64,000 nt of DNA from a bacterium (GTDB lineage: Bacteria > Pseudomonadota > Alphaproteobacteria > SP197). Below are positions 1,241 to 54,416 of the stretch, in pieces. The notes under the pieces were generated by a model. It was not told the DNA's origin, did no database searches, and saw only the letters and a list, made by a program, of their open reading frames with translations. Location of the stretch: positions 1 to 64,000 of the forward strand of contig JAPPGE010000071.1 in NCBI GenBank assembly GCA_028821455.1, read 5' to 3'. The translations under genes were made by a program, and so were the position numbers. The first letter of the stretch is position 1; each line of letters starts with the position of its first letter.

Positions 1241-2194
1241 TCACCCGTAGTAGCCGGCGCGAACGGTCGCGCCGATGAAATTGCAGATCAGCCGTTCGGC
1301 GTGGATCATCGTGATGTTGCCGACATCGCGGCCGGGCGCAATCTCCACCAGGTCCATGCCCAGTACACGTCCCTTGCCTGCGAGACCGTGGATCAGCCTG
1401 CGGGTCTGCATCCAGTCGAGGCCGCCGGGCGTCTGGGCCATGACGGCCGGCATGATGGTGGGATCGAGTCCGTCGGCATCAACCGTGAGGTAGTAGGGTC
1501 CGCCGTCGGGGATGCGGTCGAGTACGGCGTCCATGCCAATATCGTGCATCTCGTAGGCAGTGATGATATCGGCGCCGTAGGCCCGGGCGGCTTCGACCTC
1601 GCCGCGGCGTGCGCTCCCGATCCCGCGGATGCCGATCTGCGTGATGTGGCCGAACCAGGTCATCTCGGACGCGCGCCGGATCGGGCTGGAGTAGCCTTCC
1701 GGCTCGCCGTTGACCTCGTCACGCCAGTCGAGATGGGCATCGACGTGGACCAGTGTGATCTCTTCTTCCCCTTCGAGAGCCCGCATGACCGGAATCGGGA
1801 TGCCGTGATCGCCACCCAGCGTCACCAGCACCGCTCCTGACGCGAGAATCTTGCGGGCGGCGGCCTCGGCGCGCCGGTAGTGCTCGGCATGATCGCCCAT
1901 GTCGGCGGTCACGTTGCCGCAATCGACCACCCGGACGGGCCGATCATCGAGCAAGGGTCCACCGAGATCCCAGTCGAAGTGGTTGCGTGTGTAGTCGCTC
2001 ATGTGGGAGCACTGGCGTATGGCGTCGGGTGCGCGACTCTGGTCGTTCGCCATTTCGTCGGGTTTGTAGGGCATGCCGTAGGGAATGCCGAGTATGGCGA
2101 TGTCCGCCTCGAGGTCGTCGAGATCAAGCGCCAGCGGATAATCGAGAAATGTCGCCGGCGGCATGCCGGGTGGGGCGGTCAGGTCTTGGCTCAT
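1241..2194 (-). CDS. Agmatinase/arginase-family ureohydrolase
   Basis: A 317-residue binuclear manganese hydrolase of the arginase superfamily. All metal-ligand motifs are present in order: GGDHGI (H130), DAHLD (D152, H154, D156) and VDADGLDP (D239, D241). The family removes urea from agmatine, arginine, guanidinobutyrate, guanidinopropionate or related guanidines. The sequence resembles the agmatinase branch more than true arginases, but the substrate is uncertain. GGGGAG precedes the ATG at 2194. No agmatine deiminase or putrescine genes are adjacent. A guanidine substrate would suit the nitrogen-scavenging character of the window. Confidence 0.85.
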   Translation of the reverse strand: MSQDLTAPPGMPPATFLDYPLALDLDDLEADIAILGIPYGMPYKPDEMANDQSRAPDAIRQCSHMSDYTRNHFDWDLGGPLLDDRPVRVVDCGNVTADMGDHAEHYRRAEAAARKILASGAVLVTLGGDHGIPIPVMRALEGEEEITLVHVDAHLDWRDEVNGEPEGYSSPIRRASEMTWFGHITQIGIRGIGSARRGEVEAARAYGADIITAYEMHDIGMDAVLDRIPDGGPYYLTVDADGLDPTIMPAVMAQTPGGLDWMQTRRLIHGLAGKGRVLGMDLVEIAPGRDVGNITMIHAERLICNFIGATVRAGYYG

Positions 2195-2688
2195 GTCGTT
2201 TCTCCCCGGTCGGCGTGCGACAACAGCAACCCGCCGGATTCTGTGGTTTCCGATGCGGCAGGAATGCGCCGCACTCTTCCTCGAACATGCCCGATGTTAG
2301 TGCAGGCACGCCGGCGCAGGCCACTGCGACCGTTGCTCCTGCAGCGTGTTCGCTCCATCGTTCCACATCAGTCCATGCCGATGACCATGGTGCGCATGTT
2401 GGGACCTCTCTCCGTCGGTTGGCTCGCATTCTGAGCCGGGTGTCGCCCGCTCCCGGAACTGCCGCACCATACCGACCCAAGATGACACCAGTGATGTCGG
2501 GAGTGGATGGCCGTTGTCCGGCACGGGACATTGACCTCTTGTCGTCGAGCAGGGTCAACAGTTCAGCGTGCCGGTCGACGTCCAGATCATGCGCCACGTG
2601 AATTCGGGTACCGATGGCGACGGGCCCGTCGTCTTGACGGGGCGCAAGCTCGGATTCCAAGCTCCGGGAGCCTTTGGGAGACACCGTC
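2195..2688. other. Divergent intergenic region, no gene recognised
   Basis: These 494 bases separate the divergently transcribed ureohydrolase and Rieske oxygenase. Open frames run through them in several phases, as expected at this GC content, but none has a convincing ribosome site or family resemblance. The region must hold the promoters of both flanking genes; no clear -35/-10 pair was picked out. Confidence 0.5.
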
Positions 2689-3825
2689 ATGACGGACGGC
2701 ATGGCCACGGTACGCACGGCGCTCCGGCGCGCTCTGGCAAGCAGCCACCACGAGGCCCGGGCTATGCCGGCGCCTTTCTACACCGACCCGGAACTTGCGA
2801 CCCTCGAGGTGGAGCACCTGTTCAAGAAGGAATGGCACTGTGTCGGCCGCGTTGAGGAGGTCGCCGAGCCGGGCCGGTTCATGCCCTACCGCCTGGCGAA
2901 CGAACCGCTGGTCATCGTGCACGGCCGCGACGGGGCGATTCGGGCGCTGTCGAACGTCTGCCGACACCGCGGCACCCTGATCGTCCGCAAGAAAGACCAG
3001 GGCCACCGTCTGGTGTGCCCCTACCATCACTGGTCCTACGAACTCGACGGCCGTCTTGCCGCGGCGCCGAGAATCCCGGAACGCGAGGATTTCCGCATCG
3101 CCGATTGCCGTCTTCCGGAATTCCCCTGCGAGGTCTGGATGGGCTTCGTCTACGTCAACCTTGATCCCGCCGCCCGGCCGCTTGCACCGCAACTTGCCGA
3201 CCTCGAGGCATTGGTCGCACCGTACCACATGGAGGAGATGTGGCTGGGCTGGCTCGGCGAGGAGGTCTGGGAGACCAACTGGAAGGCCATGGTGGAAAAC
3301 TACATGGAGGGCTACCACCTCACGCCGCTCCACAAGAACACGCTCCACAACCTCAATCCCACCAGTCTCGCCAGGCATATCCCGGCGTGCGAGCACTGGT
3401 TCGGCTACGAGGTCGGCTTTCCCGAGGACCTGCCGCGCGTGACGGCGGGTCATCCCGACCTGACAAGAAAACAGTCCAACACCTGCATCATGGCGATGGT
3501 GCAGCCGGGCAGCGGCATCGGGCTCGCCGCAGACTACAGTTCGTTCCTCTGCCTGCAGCCCGAGGGCACGGACAGGGTGCACTACAAGGCAGGCATCCTC
3601 TTCTGGGGGGACGCATGGCCCCAGGGCGCGGTCGACCGCGCGGTCGAACTGTTCCACAAGACCATGGCCGAGGACCGCTCCGTGCTGGAGCCGATGATGC
3701 AGGGCTACCGCAGCGCCCACCACGAGAGCGGCCCACTCGCGCCACCCTCGCTGGAGGGCCCGATTCTCGATCTGGCCCGGTATGTCGGTCGTCGCCTGCT
3801 GCCGACGATGGACGGGGCTGCATGA
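2689..3825 (+). CDS. Rieske [2Fe-2S] oxygenase, alpha subunit (betaine/choline monooxygenase type)
   Basis: A 378-residue ring-hydroxylating-type oxygenase large subunit. The Rieske cluster site is CRHRG (C91, H93) with CPYHHW (C110, H113). The catalytic domain shows the mononuclear iron site ENYMEGYHLTPLH (H210, H215) and the C-terminal AEDRSVLEPMMQG segment. The ENYxExYH pattern and single-subunit size are typical of the GbcA/choline-monooxygenase/stachydrine-demethylase group, which oxidatively removes methyl groups from quaternary amines, rather than of classic aromatic dioxygenases. The ATG at 2689 has GGGAG 8 bases upstream. No ferredoxin or reductase gene is beside it, so the electron donor must be encoded elsewhere. 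Confidence 0.88.
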   Translation: MTDGMATVRTALRRALASSHHEARAMPAPFYTDPELATLEVEHLFKKEWHCVGRVEEVAEPGRFMPYRLANEPLVIVHGRDGAIRALSNVCRHRGTLIVRKKDQGHRLVCPYHHWSYELDGRLAAAPRIPEREDFRIADCRLPEFPCEVWMGFVYVNLDPAARPLAPQLADLEALVAPYHMEEMWLGWLGEEVWETNWKAMVENYMEGYHLTPLHKNTLHNLNPTSLARHIPACEHWFGYEVGFPEDLPRVTAGHPDLTRKQSNTCIMAMVQPGSGIGLAADYSSFLCLQPEGTDRVHYKAGILFWGDAWPQGAVDRAVELFHKTMAEDRSVLEPMMQGYRSAHHESGPLAPPSLEGPILDLARYVGRRLLPTMDGAA

Positions 3826-6749: not shown

Positions 6750-7456
6750 GACGCGGCCCGGTCGTCCTGTTCGAAGATCATCGCCACGGCGCGCACCGGG
6801 CACCCGGTACCGTCCTTCATGGAGAGCGGGAGGCAGACAAAGAGGAAGTCCTCGCCCTCGAGTGCCTCAAGGTTGCACAGTTGCTGGACCATGCACACGC
6901 CCTGGGTGTTCCAGACCGCGTGGGTCGGCCACCACCACTCGGACGGGTCGTCCATGCCGATGAGGTCGGTGCACAAGAGCCTGATGCCGCGGTCCACCAG
7001 CCACTGGGCCGCGTCGACCGGAACAAAGGGCCGGTTCATGGCAAAGCCGTCCTTGCCCCAGTCCTTTGAGGTTCCCGTCCACACGACGCAGGCTGCATCC
7101 GGACCAATTCTGCGTGAGCTCTTGCGTTCCGCATCCTCGAGATCGGCGATGGTGATCGCCTCCCCGTTCTGCCGGTGACGCAGGTCAAGCAGATGGCCGG
7201 GCAGCACCAGCTGCTCCAGGGGGACCTGATCAACACTCAGGCCGTCGGCATCGCAGTGTCTCGGCGCGTCCAGATGGGTGCCGCAGTGCTCGGGCATGAG
7301 GATCATGCGGCTCTCCATCGCCATCCTGCCGCCGGTGATCTGCGAAAGATAGGCGTGATCATCGAGCGGGAAGAATGTCACCTGGCCGCCGATGTTCGGC
7401 ATGTTGGAATACATCGGGTGACTGAGATCGACGATCCTGGAAACGGTTGGCAGCAT
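6746..7456 (-). CDS. Cyclase-family metal-dependent hydrolase (kynurenine formamidase-like)
   Basis: A 236-residue protein of the cyclase family (PF04199), which includes KynB formamidase and isatin hydrolase. The metal-binding signature HCGTHLDAPRH is present, with the family start VDLSHPMYSNMP. Members hydrolyse N-formyl or cyclic amides using Mn or Zn. No kynurenine pathway genes are adjacent, so the substrate is open. GGGAG precedes the ATG at 7456. Its stop overlaps the start of nth by 4 bases. Confidence 0.85.
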   Translation of the reverse strand: MLPTVSRIVDLSHPMYSNMPNIGGQVTFFPLDDHAYLSQITGGRMAMESRMILMPEHCGTHLDAPRHCDADGLSVDQVPLEQLVLPGHLLDLRHRQNGEAITIADLEDAERKSSRRIGPDAACVVWTGTSKDWGKDGFAMNRPFVPVDAAQWLVDRGIRLLCTDLIGMDDPSEWWWPTHAVWNTQGVCMVQQLCNLEALEGEDFLFVCLPLSMKDGTGCPVRAVAMIFEQDDRAAS

Positions 7457-50562: not shown

Positions 50563-50570
50563 CAATCTTA
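50563..50570. repeat. Left target-site duplication of the IS1595 element
   Basis: CAATCTTA directly left of the element matches CAATCTTG directly right of it (54409-54416) at 7 of 8 bases. Eight bases is the usual IS1595-family duplication length; the last base has probably mutated. Confidence 0.7.
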
Positions 50571-50609
50571 GGGGATTATATACTTGACTGAAAACCGGGG
50601 GTGCCGTAT
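50571..50609 (+). repeat. Left terminal inverted repeat (39 bp)
   Basis: Starts GGGGATTATATACTTGACTG and is identical over 39 bases to the reverse complement of 54370-54408. It contains the -35 hexamer of the transposase promoter. Confidence 0.95.
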
Positions 50610-50612
50610 ACT
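50584..50612 (+). promoter_or_regulatory. Strong sigma70-type promoter for the transposase operon
   Basis: TTGACT (50584-50589) and TATACT (50607-50612) are each one base from consensus and 17 bases apart. The -35 lies inside the left inverted repeat, so element ends and expression signal are combined. The transposase ATG follows about 28 bases later. Confidence 0.7.
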
Positions 50613-50640
50613 CCTGATAAATCAACGTATGGAGTCGGAC

Positions 50641-51615
50641 ATGGCGCAGAAGGGACCGGGCAAATCGCACCGCGAAGGCATCAGCATCATGGCACTGGCC
50701 GACATGTTCCCGGACGAGGCCAGCGCGGCCGCGTGGCTTGAGAGCGTCGTGTGGCCGAACGGTCGTCACTGCCCGCGTTGCGGCTCCACGGAGACCGTCA
50801 ATGCGTCCGCCACGTCTGGCCTTCCCTACTACTGCCAGGGTTGCAAGAAGCCGTTTTCGGTCAGGATCGGCAGCACCCTTGAGCGGTCGAAGGTTCCCCT
50901 CCGCAAGTGGGTGTTCGCGATCTACCTCGAGATGACGAGCCTCAAGGGCGTGTCGTCGATGAAGCTCCATCGGGACATCGACGTGACGCAGAAGACCGCT
51001 TGGTTCATGCTCCATCGCATCCGCGAAGCGTGGAAGGGCGTGGACATGGCCCTTACCGGTCCGGTAGAGGCAGACGAGATGTACGTCGGGGGCCTCCGCA
51101 AGAACATGTCCAAGGCCAAACGGAAGCAGCTTGAGGGCCGGGGTCCGGTCGGCAAGTCAGTGGTCGCCGGGATCAAGGACAGGGCCACCAAGCGCGTCCG
51201 CGCGAAAGTTGTTGGTGACACCACCGCCGAGACCCTGCAAGGCTTCGTCCGGGACCACACGGCGGGAGGCGCGATGGTCTACACAGATGAGGCGAGCGCC
51301 TACGCGGGGCTGGCGCGGGACTTCGGCCACGAGGCCGTCAACCACGGCGTCGGCGAGTACGTCCGGGGACAGGCACACACCAACGGGATCGAGTCCTTCT
51401 GGTCCACGTTCAAGCGGGCGCACAAGGGCGTCTACCACAAGATCAGCGCCAAGAACCTTGACCGCTACGTGCGGGAGTTCGCGGGCCGTCACAACGTCCG
51501 GGAACTGGACACCATCGAACAGATGGGCGCGGCGGTCGTCGGCATGGTCGGCCAGCGTCTCATGTACCGGGACCTGATCGCTGATAACGGGCTGGACTCC
51601 GGGGCGCGGGCGTGA
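50641..51615 (+). CDS. IS1595-family transposase
   Basis: A 324-residue DDE-superfamily transposase of the ISXO2-like type. The N-terminal zinc ribbon shows CPRCGS and YYCQGCKKPFS; the catalytic core has VEADEMYVGG (first Asp), VYTDEASAYAGL (second Asp) and HTNGIESFWSTFKRAHKGVYH, the Asn-Glu-Lys end of the family. GGAGTCGGAC precedes the ATG at 50641; an in-frame ATG at 50629 is an alternative. Its stop overlaps the GTG of the next gene by 4 bases, so the cargo is translationally coupled to transposase. The gene appears intact. Confidence 0.93.
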   Translation: MAQKGPGKSHREGISIMALADMFPDEASAAAWLESVVWPNGRHCPRCGSTETVNASATSGLPYYCQGCKKPFSVRIGSTLERSKVPLRKWVFAIYLEMTSLKGVSSMKLHRDIDVTQKTAWFMLHRIREAWKGVDMALTGPVEADEMYVGGLRKNMSKAKRKQLEGRGPVGKSVVAGIKDRATKRVRAKVVGDTTAETLQGFVRDHTAGGAMVYTDEASAYAGLARDFGHEAVNHGVGEYVRGQAHTNGIESFWSTFKRAHKGVYHKISAKNLDRYVREFAGRHNVRELDTIEQMGAAVVGMVGQRLMYRDLIADNGLDSGARA

Positions 51616-54194
51616 GTGAAGAACTTCTACAAACGGCACCGCTCCCACTAGGGCGATACAAGTATCATCGCCTTGGCGCATCAACGCTTGGTCAGTTGCA
51701 TCAGGCCCGCATTGTATCAAAACTAGTCCCGCCCGACCTTCGGACGAAGAAACCAGACGGGCTGATCACACTCGGCAAAGGGCTCGTTAAGGCGTACATT
51801 GAATACAAAACACCGAGCGAGTTGAGAACGCCAAGACAAGTAACCAAGGCGATAAATCAGGAAATCGCGCCTGCCAGGGCACTCTGCAACTTGCTCATTG
51901 TCACTAGCGGTGCAAAGACATTTTGGATCAACCCACATACTGGCAACCAAGTGCAATCGCCAGACGCTCTGCCGCCCTTCAACGCAAAGTCGATTGTGGA
52001 GGGCCGGGCGTCACTTGAATACCTGCAGTCGCTGGAGGAAATAGTTGACCGGGCCGACCATTCTCTTTCACCTGACAATGATGAGTTGTATAGCCCGTCG
52101 TTGATTGATCCGTCACAAATAGCGCAATCGATATGGCAAAAGATATGGATCAACACAGGCAAAGAACCTGAGAAGTGCCTGTACAATGTTGTGGAGTTGT
52201 TTGTTTTCAAGTTCCTGTCCGATCTATCCGTTCTGAAGGCACACCACAACTTCGAGCATGTCTGTGAGGTAGGAGACACGTCGGGTCACGAGGACGCGCT
52301 CACAACCTACGCCAAACTGAGTCGTCCCGCGATTTACGATCTTTTCCCGGCCGGTCAAGACGGAACCAGCATCATAAATGGCACCATATTCGTAAACGAA
52401 AGGGGCGAGCCGAACAGTTCACAGTCTCGCCTTTTCTTCGAAGTCCTCAAGGATCTTCGCGAATATGACAGGCAACACGGTTCTCTCAAGTACATCGAAA
52501 AGGAATTCAAGACACGACTCTATGAGGCTTTCCTGCGTCAGGGCGCCGGGTTGCATCACTTGGGGCAGTTCTTCACGCCAAGAAATGTCGTTCAAGCGGT
52601 GGTTCGCATGTCCGGCGCGAACTCACTGGCGCCCGGCTCATCCCTTTGCGACCCGTTCTGTGGTGTTGGCGGGTTTCTCCTTGAGGCGATATTACAATGT
52701 CCTCGTCTTCACGCCGCCTTTCAACCCGTAGACGGTGCAATAAGCCCCGATGTCACTGTTGTTGGATACGACAGGGGAAGTGACGAGAAGGAAGACGAGA
52801 GGACCATCATCCTGGCAAAGGCCAATGCTCTGATCTACTTCTCGGACTTGCTGGCACGCTACAGCTCGCCCGACTTCGCCAAGGAAGTGTCCGAGCAGTT
52901 GATCAATCCGATGTTTCAATTGTTGCGCAGCAACCTTGGGACCTTCGAGGTCGACGACGAGTCGAAACATGACCTTATCCTCACCAATCCGCCATACGTC
53001 ACCCGAGGGTCGGCGAGCCTCAAGAATGCGATAGAGGAAGCCGGTATTGCTGACAGGTACAGCGTGTCCGGGCGCGGGACGGAAGCCCTTGCCATGCAAT
53101 GGGTCATCCGAAGTCTGACACCTGGCGGCACCGGGATTGTCATAGTGCCGGATGGTCTTCTGAATCAGCGTGAAATGCTGGCGTTCATCAAGGCAGAGTG
53201 TGTGGTCAAGGGCATCATCTCCTTGCCCGAGAGAACCTTTTACGCCACCCCCAAGAAGACGTACATACTGGCGATTACCAAGAAGCGTCGTGCCGGGGTG
53301 ATGCAAACGGAACCAGTGTTCGCCTATCTGGTGTCGGAGACCGGTGAAACGAGGGACGCAAATCGCTGGACCATTCCCGACAATCACTTGATCGAGGCGA
53401 CGGGCCTTTACAACCAGTTTGTCGGACACCCCCTCTCCTTCCAACCCTCGTCGTCTAGATGCAAAGCTGTGTCCTGGGACACTTTCGATGCACTAGAGCA
53501 TTGGATGTTGGACCGCCGTTGTTGGAACACGCAAGAACTGGAGGCCATGGGCGTGTCCGCAAGTCACAGCGCCTCTGTGACCGTAGAGGAATTCAACGAA
53601 TACCTGACTCCACTCGGGATACAAGGGATCGGGGAGCAGCGGCAGGGACATGCAAGGGCCGCGATTAGCTATAGGGAGGTGTTGCTTGGCGACGAGGAAT
53701 TGTTCTGCTTAGTAATCGGAAAGCGTGTTCTCAGGAGGGACTGCGTAGAGAGCGGAATACCCTGCATCAGCGCTAATGTTCGGGATGTGTTCGGTTACAT
53801 CAAATCATCAGATATCCTTTCAGACTTTACTGCGCCATCCCTGACGTGGGGCATTGACGGGGCCTTCGACTGGCACTTCATTCCGGCCGGGTCGCCTTTC
53901 CATCCCACGGACCACTGTGGAGTTCTTCGTGTTGTGCACCCTGGCATTGACCCAGAGTATCTGTACTTCGTACTGAGGAACACTCGCGACAGGAATGGCT
54001 TCGACCGGACCTTTCGGGCCAACCTGCGCAATGTTGGCAACGTCGCTGTGGATGTTCCAATGTCGCATGATGGTGCATTTGATTTGCACAAACAGCGTGA
54101 GATTGCCCGCACGTACAAGGAAATCGAAAAGAGGCGGGAGCATGCACAGCAGGCCCTCCGCTACATCACAGACGCTAATGTGACGATCCAATAG
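51612..54194 (+). CDS. Putative nuclease-N6-adenine methyltransferase-specificity fusion (type I/IIG-like)
   Basis: An 860-residue cargo protein. Residues 1-130 resemble an HsdR-type nuclease domain: D49 in KPDGLI, then E64-x-K66 in AYIEYKTP, and a following Gln (PD-(D/E)xK pattern). Residues about 290-600 are a gamma-class adenine methylase: GQFFTPRNVV, motif I DPFCGVGGF (347-355), catalytic motif IV NPPY (459-462). Residues about 620-860 resemble an HsdS-like target-recognition half (GAFDWHFIPAGSPFHP; YLYFVLRNTRDRNGF) ending in a coiled coil. The order R-M-S in one chain recalls type IIG enzymes. A regulatory or defence role is inference; it could also only methylate. Confidence 0.78.
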   Translation: MSEELLQTAPLPLGRYKYHRLGASTLGQLHQARIVSKLVPPDLRTKKPDGLITLGKGLVKAYIEYKTPSELRTPRQVTKAINQEIAPARALCNLLIVTSGAKTFWINPHTGNQVQSPDALPPFNAKSIVEGRASLEYLQSLEEIVDRADHSLSPDNDELYSPSLIDPSQIAQSIWQKIWINTGKEPEKCLYNVVELFVFKFLSDLSVLKAHHNFEHVCEVGDTSGHEDALTTYAKLSRPAIYDLFPAGQDGTSIINGTIFVNERGEPNSSQSRLFFEVLKDLREYDRQHGSLKYIEKEFKTRLYEAFLRQGAGLHHLGQFFTPRNVVQAVVRMSGANSLAPGSSLCDPFCGVGGFLLEAILQCPRLHAAFQPVDGAISPDVTVVGYDRGSDEKEDERTIILAKANALIYFSDLLARYSSPDFAKEVSEQLINPMFQLLRSNLGTFEVDDESKHDLILTNPPYVTRGSASLKNAIEEAGIADRYSVSGRGTEALAMQWVIRSLTPGGTGIVIVPDGLLNQREMLAFIKAECVVKGIISLPERTFYATPKKTYILAITKKRRAGVMQTEPVFAYLVSETGETRDANRWTIPDNHLIEATGLYNQFVGHPLSFQPSSSRCKAVSWDTFDALEHWMLDRRCWNTQELEAMGVSASHSASVTVEEFNEYLTPLGIQGIGEQRQGHARAAISYREVLLGDEELFCLVIGKRVLRRDCVESGIPCISANVRDVFGYIKSSDILSDFTAPSLTWGIDGAFDWHFIPAGSPFHPTDHCGVLRVVHPGIDPEYLYFVLRNTRDRNGFDRTFRANLRNVGNVAVDVPMSHDGAFDLHKQREIARTYKEIEKRREHAQQALRYITDANVTIQ

Positions 54195-54207
54195 GCAGGA
54201 GCCAGAC

Positions 54208-54363
54208 ATGGTCGATGAAAACGGAGACAATACGCACCGGCGCCAACCACCACCCGAAGTCAAAGTCCTGAATCCACGCTACAAGGGTGCGACCCCGGAG
54301 ATGGTGGCCCGCGCGCTCTTGCATCCAAGAAGGCAGGACAATGAGGGCGACGAGGAAACATGA
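54208..54363 (+). CDS. Small 51-residue protein in the IS1595 element
   Basis: ATG at 54208, GGCAGGAG 8 bases upstream, stop at 54361-54363. The protein is highly charged, with a basic core VKVLNPRYKGATPEMVARAL and an acidic tail DNEGDEET. It ends 6 bases before the right inverted repeat and begins 14 after the methylase stop, so it is part of the cargo operon. The NPRYKGATPE-VARALL pattern looks like a conserved small domain, but no function is known to me. A methylase partner or a regulator is possible. Confidence 0.65.
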   Translation: MVDENGDNTHRRQPPPEVKVLNPRYKGATPEMVARALLHPRRQDNEGDEET

Positions 54364-54369
54364 CCGGTC

Positions 54370-54408
54370 ATACGGCACCCCCGGTTTTCAGTCAAGTATA
54401 TAATCCCC
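54370..54408 (-). repeat. Right terminal inverted repeat (39 bp)
   Basis: Reverse complement identical to 50571-50609 over all 39 bases; the next inner base differs. It starts 6 bases after the stop of the 51-residue protein. Confidence 0.95.
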
Positions 54409-54416
54409 CAATCTTG
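54409..54416. repeat. Right target-site duplication of the IS1595 element
   Basis: CAATCTTG, 7 of 8 bases identical to the left copy at 50563-50570. Confidence 0.7.

Follow-up and report, generated by a model that had tools for sequence, protein, structure and literature searches.

Insertion sequences that carry passenger genes (transporter IS, tIS) are known and include members of the IS1595 family, for example ISNha5 (Siguier 2009, as cited in PMC11891212). A methyltransferase passenger is known in IS220, a member of the IS1380 family (PMC11891212). It is known that restriction-modification systems pass from one genome to another, often by a vehicle that is unclear; PMC3031569 (citing Furuta 2010) describes restriction systems that move with IS elements in composite or cointegrate form. 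Here, we analyze a 3,838-bp element of the IS1595 family (positions 50571-54408) located in a 64,000-nucleotide stretch of alphaproteobacterial DNA, hereinafter the window (Table 1). With a probability of roughly 0.78, we interpret it as a passenger-carrying transporter IS that moves a probably captured one-polypeptide restriction-modification enzyme, the mobility of the unit and the activity of the enzyme both being predictions.

Organization of the element

The inverted terminal 39-mers are identical at 39 of 39 positions, begin with GGGGATTATATAC and stop matching at position 40; an exact inverted pair of this length is expected by chance within 4.4 kb with a probability of about 3e-17. The octamers immediately outside the ends, CAATCTTA and CAATCTTG, agree at 7 of 8 positions (chance at fixed ends, about 4e-4). 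Ends starting with GG and 8-bp target duplications are traits of the IS1595 family; the window element has the former, and its duplication is 7/8, with mostly 8/8 duplications in the relatives. The IS1595/ISXO2-like DDE domain and the zinc ribbon typical of this family are both present in the transposase, which is intact: PF12762 matches over the full domain (E 8e-41), the zinc ribbon is recognized by PF12760, the NCBIfam model transpos_IS1595 (NF033547) scores 188 bits (cut-off 75), and the DDE set is apparently complete (D145, D216 and E251, assigned by motif position). The identical ends and the PF12762 and NF033547 matches bear out the original prediction of an intact IS1595-family element. 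The predicted transposase promoter also has a counterpart, a hexamer pair that is promoter-like by consensus alone.

Table 1. Features of the IS1595-family element and its target site in the window.
Feature	Position	Strand	Evidence
Left target-site copy, CAATCTTA	50563..50570	.	7/8 match to right copy
Left terminal inverted repeat, 39 bp	50571..50609	+	Reverse complement of 54370-54408
Promoter-like TTGACT-17-TATACT	50584..50612	+	Consensus scan 10/12; -35 inside left end
IS1595-family transposase, 324 aa, N-terminal zinc ribbon, DDE set	50641..51615	+	PF12762, PF12760, NF033547
Most likely single-chain restriction-modification enzyme, 860 aa, Type IIG-like	51612..54194	+	N6_Mtase, PADLOC models, homologues
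Predicted N-terminal PD-(D/E)XK nuclease domain, P48-D49 ... E64-x-K66	51612..52070	+	Motif conservation, AlphaFold, VIA-align
N6-adenine methyltransferase domain, motif I DPFCGVGGF, motif IV NPPY	52515..53474	+	PF02384, residues 302-621
C-terminal target-recognition (half-S) domain	53520..54194	+	S-subunit match; Type IIG model C-terminus
Small ORF, 51 aa, probable accessory ORF of the mobile module	54208..54363	+	Clusters with small ORFs of relatives
Right terminal inverted repeat, 39 bp	54370..54408	-	Pairs with left end
Right target-site copy, CAATCTTG	54409..54416	.	7/8 against CAATCTTA; empty-site alignment

All three ORFs of the element are intact. The methylase start overlaps the transposase stop in the tetranucleotide GTGA (51612-51615), so that the two genes are probably translationally coupled, and the small ORF starts 13 bp past the methylase stop. 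This compact arrangement is consistent with the coupled operon that had been predicted; the count of two cargo genes does not stand, being replaced by one cargo gene and a small ORF that more likely is part of the mobile module (see below). The cargo gene has a G+C content of 54%, compared with 65% for the transposase, and therefore probably has been captured.

The element is present as a single copy in its genome. When the same ends around unrelated DNA were sought, the 39-bp ends were found nowhere else in this genome; the outer ~20 bp alone recur in divergent IS1595 elements that have different DNA inside, as expected of a family. In a genome of the same genus, the final 167 bp of one contig (G001:C158, L162) include a perfect copy of the outermost 20 bp of the left end, followed by different DNA and then by the contig end.

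Related elements, a putative cargo slot and the small ORF

Relatives of the transposase were gathered from 96 genomes, plasmids and IMG/VR, longer stretches were then retrieved, and element ends were called from inverted repeats and target duplications; the sample is non-random, being based on similarity to three transposases and weighted to contigs labelled viral. Clear ends were identified at 58 of the 136 distinct transposase loci and delimit elements of 1.1-5.9 kb, most of which are longer than a transposase requires. The relatives carry other large passengers or none and, judging from this content, the passenger of the window element appears to be dispensable for transposition; with a passenger inside one pair of IS ends, the window element fits the description of a tIS. 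Two of the relatives, L277 and L280, are 91% identical over positions 1-994 and 92% identical over the last 149 bp, and contain unrelated cargo in between. One breakpoint is the transposase stop, and on the right-hand side identity resumes exactly at the ATG of the small ORF. Because the cargo is swapped precisely between these two points, we read this arrangement as a mobile frame with a putative exchangeable cargo slot.

Locus L151 (G093:C85) contains two related IS1595 elements almost back to back, which start at 6949 and 7063 and point in opposite directions. Both have an 8/8 duplication of their own; the transposase halves are 80% identical and the cargo is different. The largest element (L184, 5.9 kb) encodes a 1443-aa protein that is probably responsible for the ResIII/Helicase_C matches. 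Three cargo-carrying elements of the window clade, all with 8/8 duplications, are found in a single genome (G089 contigs C23, C34 and C8; L138-L140).

The 51-aa ORF clusters with its counterparts in L138, L139 and L140 and has a weaker similarity to the one in L137 (E 0.026). Among the boundary-defined relatives, these four are the nearest (transposase identity 51-57%), and their cargo differs. Because elements with related transposases thus combine similar small ORFs with different cargo, the 51-aa ORF probably belongs to the mobile module rather than to the cargo. When the small ORFs located between the transposase and the right end were clustered by BLAST, 8 clusters spanning at least 3 elements were obtained, compared with 0 clusters for size-matched ORFs from the flanks. 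Two clusters were dropped from the small-ORF count, namely L160/L171/L173, an antisense shadow of a methylase gene, and L149/L154/L169, probably a Cas2-like family; after this removal and the addition of profile matches, a small ORF is present in about 37 of the 58 elements. The ORF shared by L149, L154 and L169 is ~90 aa long, and two surveyed cargo proteins match the Cas2 family (PF09827). The small-ORF groups look alike, with a short helix-like hydrophobic stretch, a proline and, in many, a Lys-rich tail; common descent is a candidate explanation of this resemblance.

The alternative that the 51-aa ORF is no accessory gene, but a chance ORF or an ordinary piece of cargo, appears rather unlikely given that clusters of at least three elements have no equivalent in length-matched flanks, that four elements of 1.3-1.4 kb consist of a transposase and such a small ORF and nothing else, and that the small ORF of L277 and L280 is conserved at 92% beside unrelated cargo. 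What speaks for this alternative is that the small ORFs form several sequence groups, vary in position and strand, and have no known family: ten of them, scanned against Pfam and NCBIfam, matched no family, and the 51-aa ORF had no match in plasmids.

Insertion history and mobility

The target site was analyzed with a query that consisted of both flanks joined, with one octamer removed. This query spans the junction in two genomes of the same genus (G004:C72 and G007:C216), both of which have the empty site. In G004, the alignment across the junction extends over 357 columns with no gaps once one octamer copy is removed, which upholds the near-perfect duplication of the original prediction. 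On the left side of the junction is a gene whose sequence is GFA-like; its orthologues (71-75% identity) adjoin the same right-hand DNA in the empty-site genomes. Because G004 and G007 have an uninterrupted site with the same neighbours, the unit was either inserted after the divergence of these species or cleanly lost from both. A methylase predating the insertion was sought as well: an orthologue of the 860-aa enzyme was found in none of the nine congeners searched, and no IS1595 transposase was detected within the retrieved loci of the three closest homologues (L017-L019).

Taken together with the empty sites, the ends and the duplication suggest how the unit might move. The DDE transposase would be expressed from the promoter overlapping the left end, recognize the two 39-bp ends and move the 3.8-kb unit as a whole, thereby generating an 8-bp duplication; the self-mobility stated in the initial proposal is accordingly retained as putative. 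It could alternatively be a decayed or immobile insertion that arrived once and is now static, with the enzyme retained by the host for its own use, a scenario compatible with the single copy, the 7/8 duplication and the absence from congeners, which gives no sign of recent spread. The identity of the 39-bp ends, the integrity of the three ORFs and the 8/8 duplications in many relatives make such immobility quite unlikely.

The cargo enzyme

The 860-aa protein matches the PADLOC models for Type I methyltransferases and Type IIG enzymes. Its middle part matches N6_Mtase (PF02384, E 1.5e-22), and the DPFCGVGGF and NPPY motifs of this part are invariant or nearly so among the homologues. Upstream of this domain, P48-D49, E64 and K66 are invariant in an alignment of six homologues, including those with only ~32-34% identity. 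The N-terminal 153 residues were modelled by AlphaFold with a pLDDT of 86 and a pTM of 0.84. Comparison of this model using VIA-align gave the Type IIG enzyme BpuSI first (Z 7.3, middling on the tool's own scale), followed by an HsdR fragment (6.4) and DrdV (6.3); Foldseek yielded no match below E 0.001 for the nuclease-domain model. The full-length model of the protein is poor (pLDDT 52). Beside the Rhizobium homologue, a separate gene encodes an S subunit, to each half of which the C-terminus of the window protein is similar (E 1e-8 and 1e-7). The domain traits of Type IIG enzymes, that is, a nuclease, an amino-methyltransferase with motifs I and IV, and a target-recognition domain in one chain, are therefore all recognizable by sequence or fold and, because the order in the chain is nuclease, methylase, half-S, the most likely identity of the cargo is a Type IIG-like restriction-modification enzyme made as a single chain. 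The restriction-methylation cargo proposed originally is thus retained, with the predicted nuclease, the N6-adenine methyltransferase and the specificity domain in a single polypeptide.

The closest homologues of this enzyme are stand-alone proteins from a Latescibacteria MAG (64% identity), an alphaproteobacterial MAG (52%) and a Thiosymbion genome (52%), and homologues at about 32-34% are encoded on Geobacter and Rhizobium plasmids. Single-sequence and profile searches of IMG/VR detected no relatives, and a phylum-wide profile search at E<=1e-80 retrieved the window genome alone. Two other assignments were rejected, the MADS defence system (MAD2, 44.5 bits against a curated cut-off of 720) and a classical Type I system (HsdRMS), for which the element contains no helicase or HsdR gene. 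An alternative in which the cargo encodes an orphan or regulatory methyltransferase, or belongs to another defence system (MADS/BREX-like), and its N-terminal domain does not cut, is improbable: the weak MAD2 matches, the lack of a separate nuclease gene in the element and the predicted nature of the cleavage would agree with it, but the nuclease motif is invariant in all six homologues including the 32-34% identical ones, the nuclease domain matches BpuSI, HsdR and DrdV, and other MADS or BREX genes are absent from the element.

Enzymes of Type IIG methylate their site and cleave at a fixed distance from it; for the Type IIG-like enzyme of the window, both cleavage and methylation are predicted from its domains. 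The specificity domain would pick the DNA site, the methylase would protect this site, and the PD-(D/E)XK domain would cut unmodified DNA. The enzyme might help the element persist via defence or post-segregational killing, and the element, in turn, would spread the enzyme.

Recurrent restriction or modification cargo

Several related elements carry other restriction or modification genes. The cargo of L173 and L171 consists of an N6_N4 methyltransferase and an MvaI/BcnI nuclease, that of L178 of a D12 methyltransferase and a PD-(D/E)XK nuclease (PDDEXK_11), and that of L227 of a nuclease-methyltransferase (N6_Mtase) and an S subunit (Methylase_S), whereas L177 and L160 carry an N6_N4 methyltransferase (L066, L088, L102 and L090 are the same contigs as L173, L178, L227 and L177, respectively). 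The fifth N6_N4 member of the family scan is probably L248 (= L083), judging from its SPPY motif; a DPPY-motif protein in L277 (= L079) was left out of the family scan. The window genome itself contains a second IS1595 element (L137 = G000:C78, reverse strand, oriented 1362-3819) with an 8/8 duplication, CAAGCGAC. This element encodes a Mom-family protein (PF25680, 7e-14) and a PvuII-like nuclease (PF09225, 1.6e-6) in convergent genes that overlap by 98 bp, along with a 58-aa small ORF. The Mom protein and the nuclease could together form a restriction system that relies on a modification other than methylation; no recurrence of this pairing was found beside other Mom genes.

As a control, the proteins encoded in neighbouring DNA of matched length at these loci were used; the families listed (best 25 of 55) include one N6_N4 methyltransferase. 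Because the control table lists the best 25 of 55 families, strong matches alone (about 1e-11 or better) were counted. Restriction or modification genes were present in 8 of 57 elements versus 1 of 57 flanks (Fisher p = 0.03), or in 7 versus 1 when the homologous pair L171/L173 was counted once (p = 0.06), which is suggestive of enrichment.

We tentatively propose, at somewhat less than even odds, that many IS1595-type elements are a modular platform that combines a transposase on the left, a conserved small protein and an exchangeable cargo slot in which entire restriction-modification units are captured time and again, among them the Mom-plus-nuclease pair, which would be a restriction system with a modification of the non-methyl type. 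The small protein would, just as tentatively, be located elsewhere in the unit, and at the right end in the window clade.

Implications and comparison with known systems

A vehicle for such systems could hardly be smaller than a single-IS unit that holds a complete restriction system in one gene. Given that relatives have different restriction or modification units at the same position, elements of this kind may serve generally to shuttle defence or other traits. Should the slot and the small ORF prove functional, one could screen IS1595 elements systematically for restriction enzymes, and perhaps DNA modifications, that are new (as with the Mom-nuclease pair), and the spread of such systems would become directly testable.

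The window element shares with the IS1595 tIS (ISNha5) the IS1595 transposase, inverted ends beginning with GG, 8-bp duplications and an internal passenger, but the IS1595 example in PMC11891212 carries a transcription regulator, in contrast to the single-chain restriction-modification enzyme predicted here. The enzyme has the same succession of nuclease, N6-adenine methyltransferase and target recognition in one chain as Type IIG and Type IIL enzymes (BpuSI, DrdV), with a fold match in the nuclease domain, although a PDB search gave no sequence match to them. The affinity with BcgI-like (Type IIB) systems is seen in the homologue from Rhizobium sp. 007, which is split into a nuclease-methylase and an S protein with two recognition halves, whereas the window protein carries just one half-S domain, as a fusion. 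In the IS-linked mobile restriction systems described in PMC3031569, restriction genes likewise travel with IS transposition, but with two flanking IS copies or a cointegrate, whereas the window gene lies inside one IS unit. In a limited search of the open-access literature, neither restriction cargo within IS1595 elements nor the small ORF was found to be described. Both IS1595 passenger genes and mobile restriction systems have precedents, whereas, judging from this search, a complete Type IIG-like enzyme in one IS1595 unit, the recurrence of differing restriction units, the cargo slot and the small-ORF families appear to be new.
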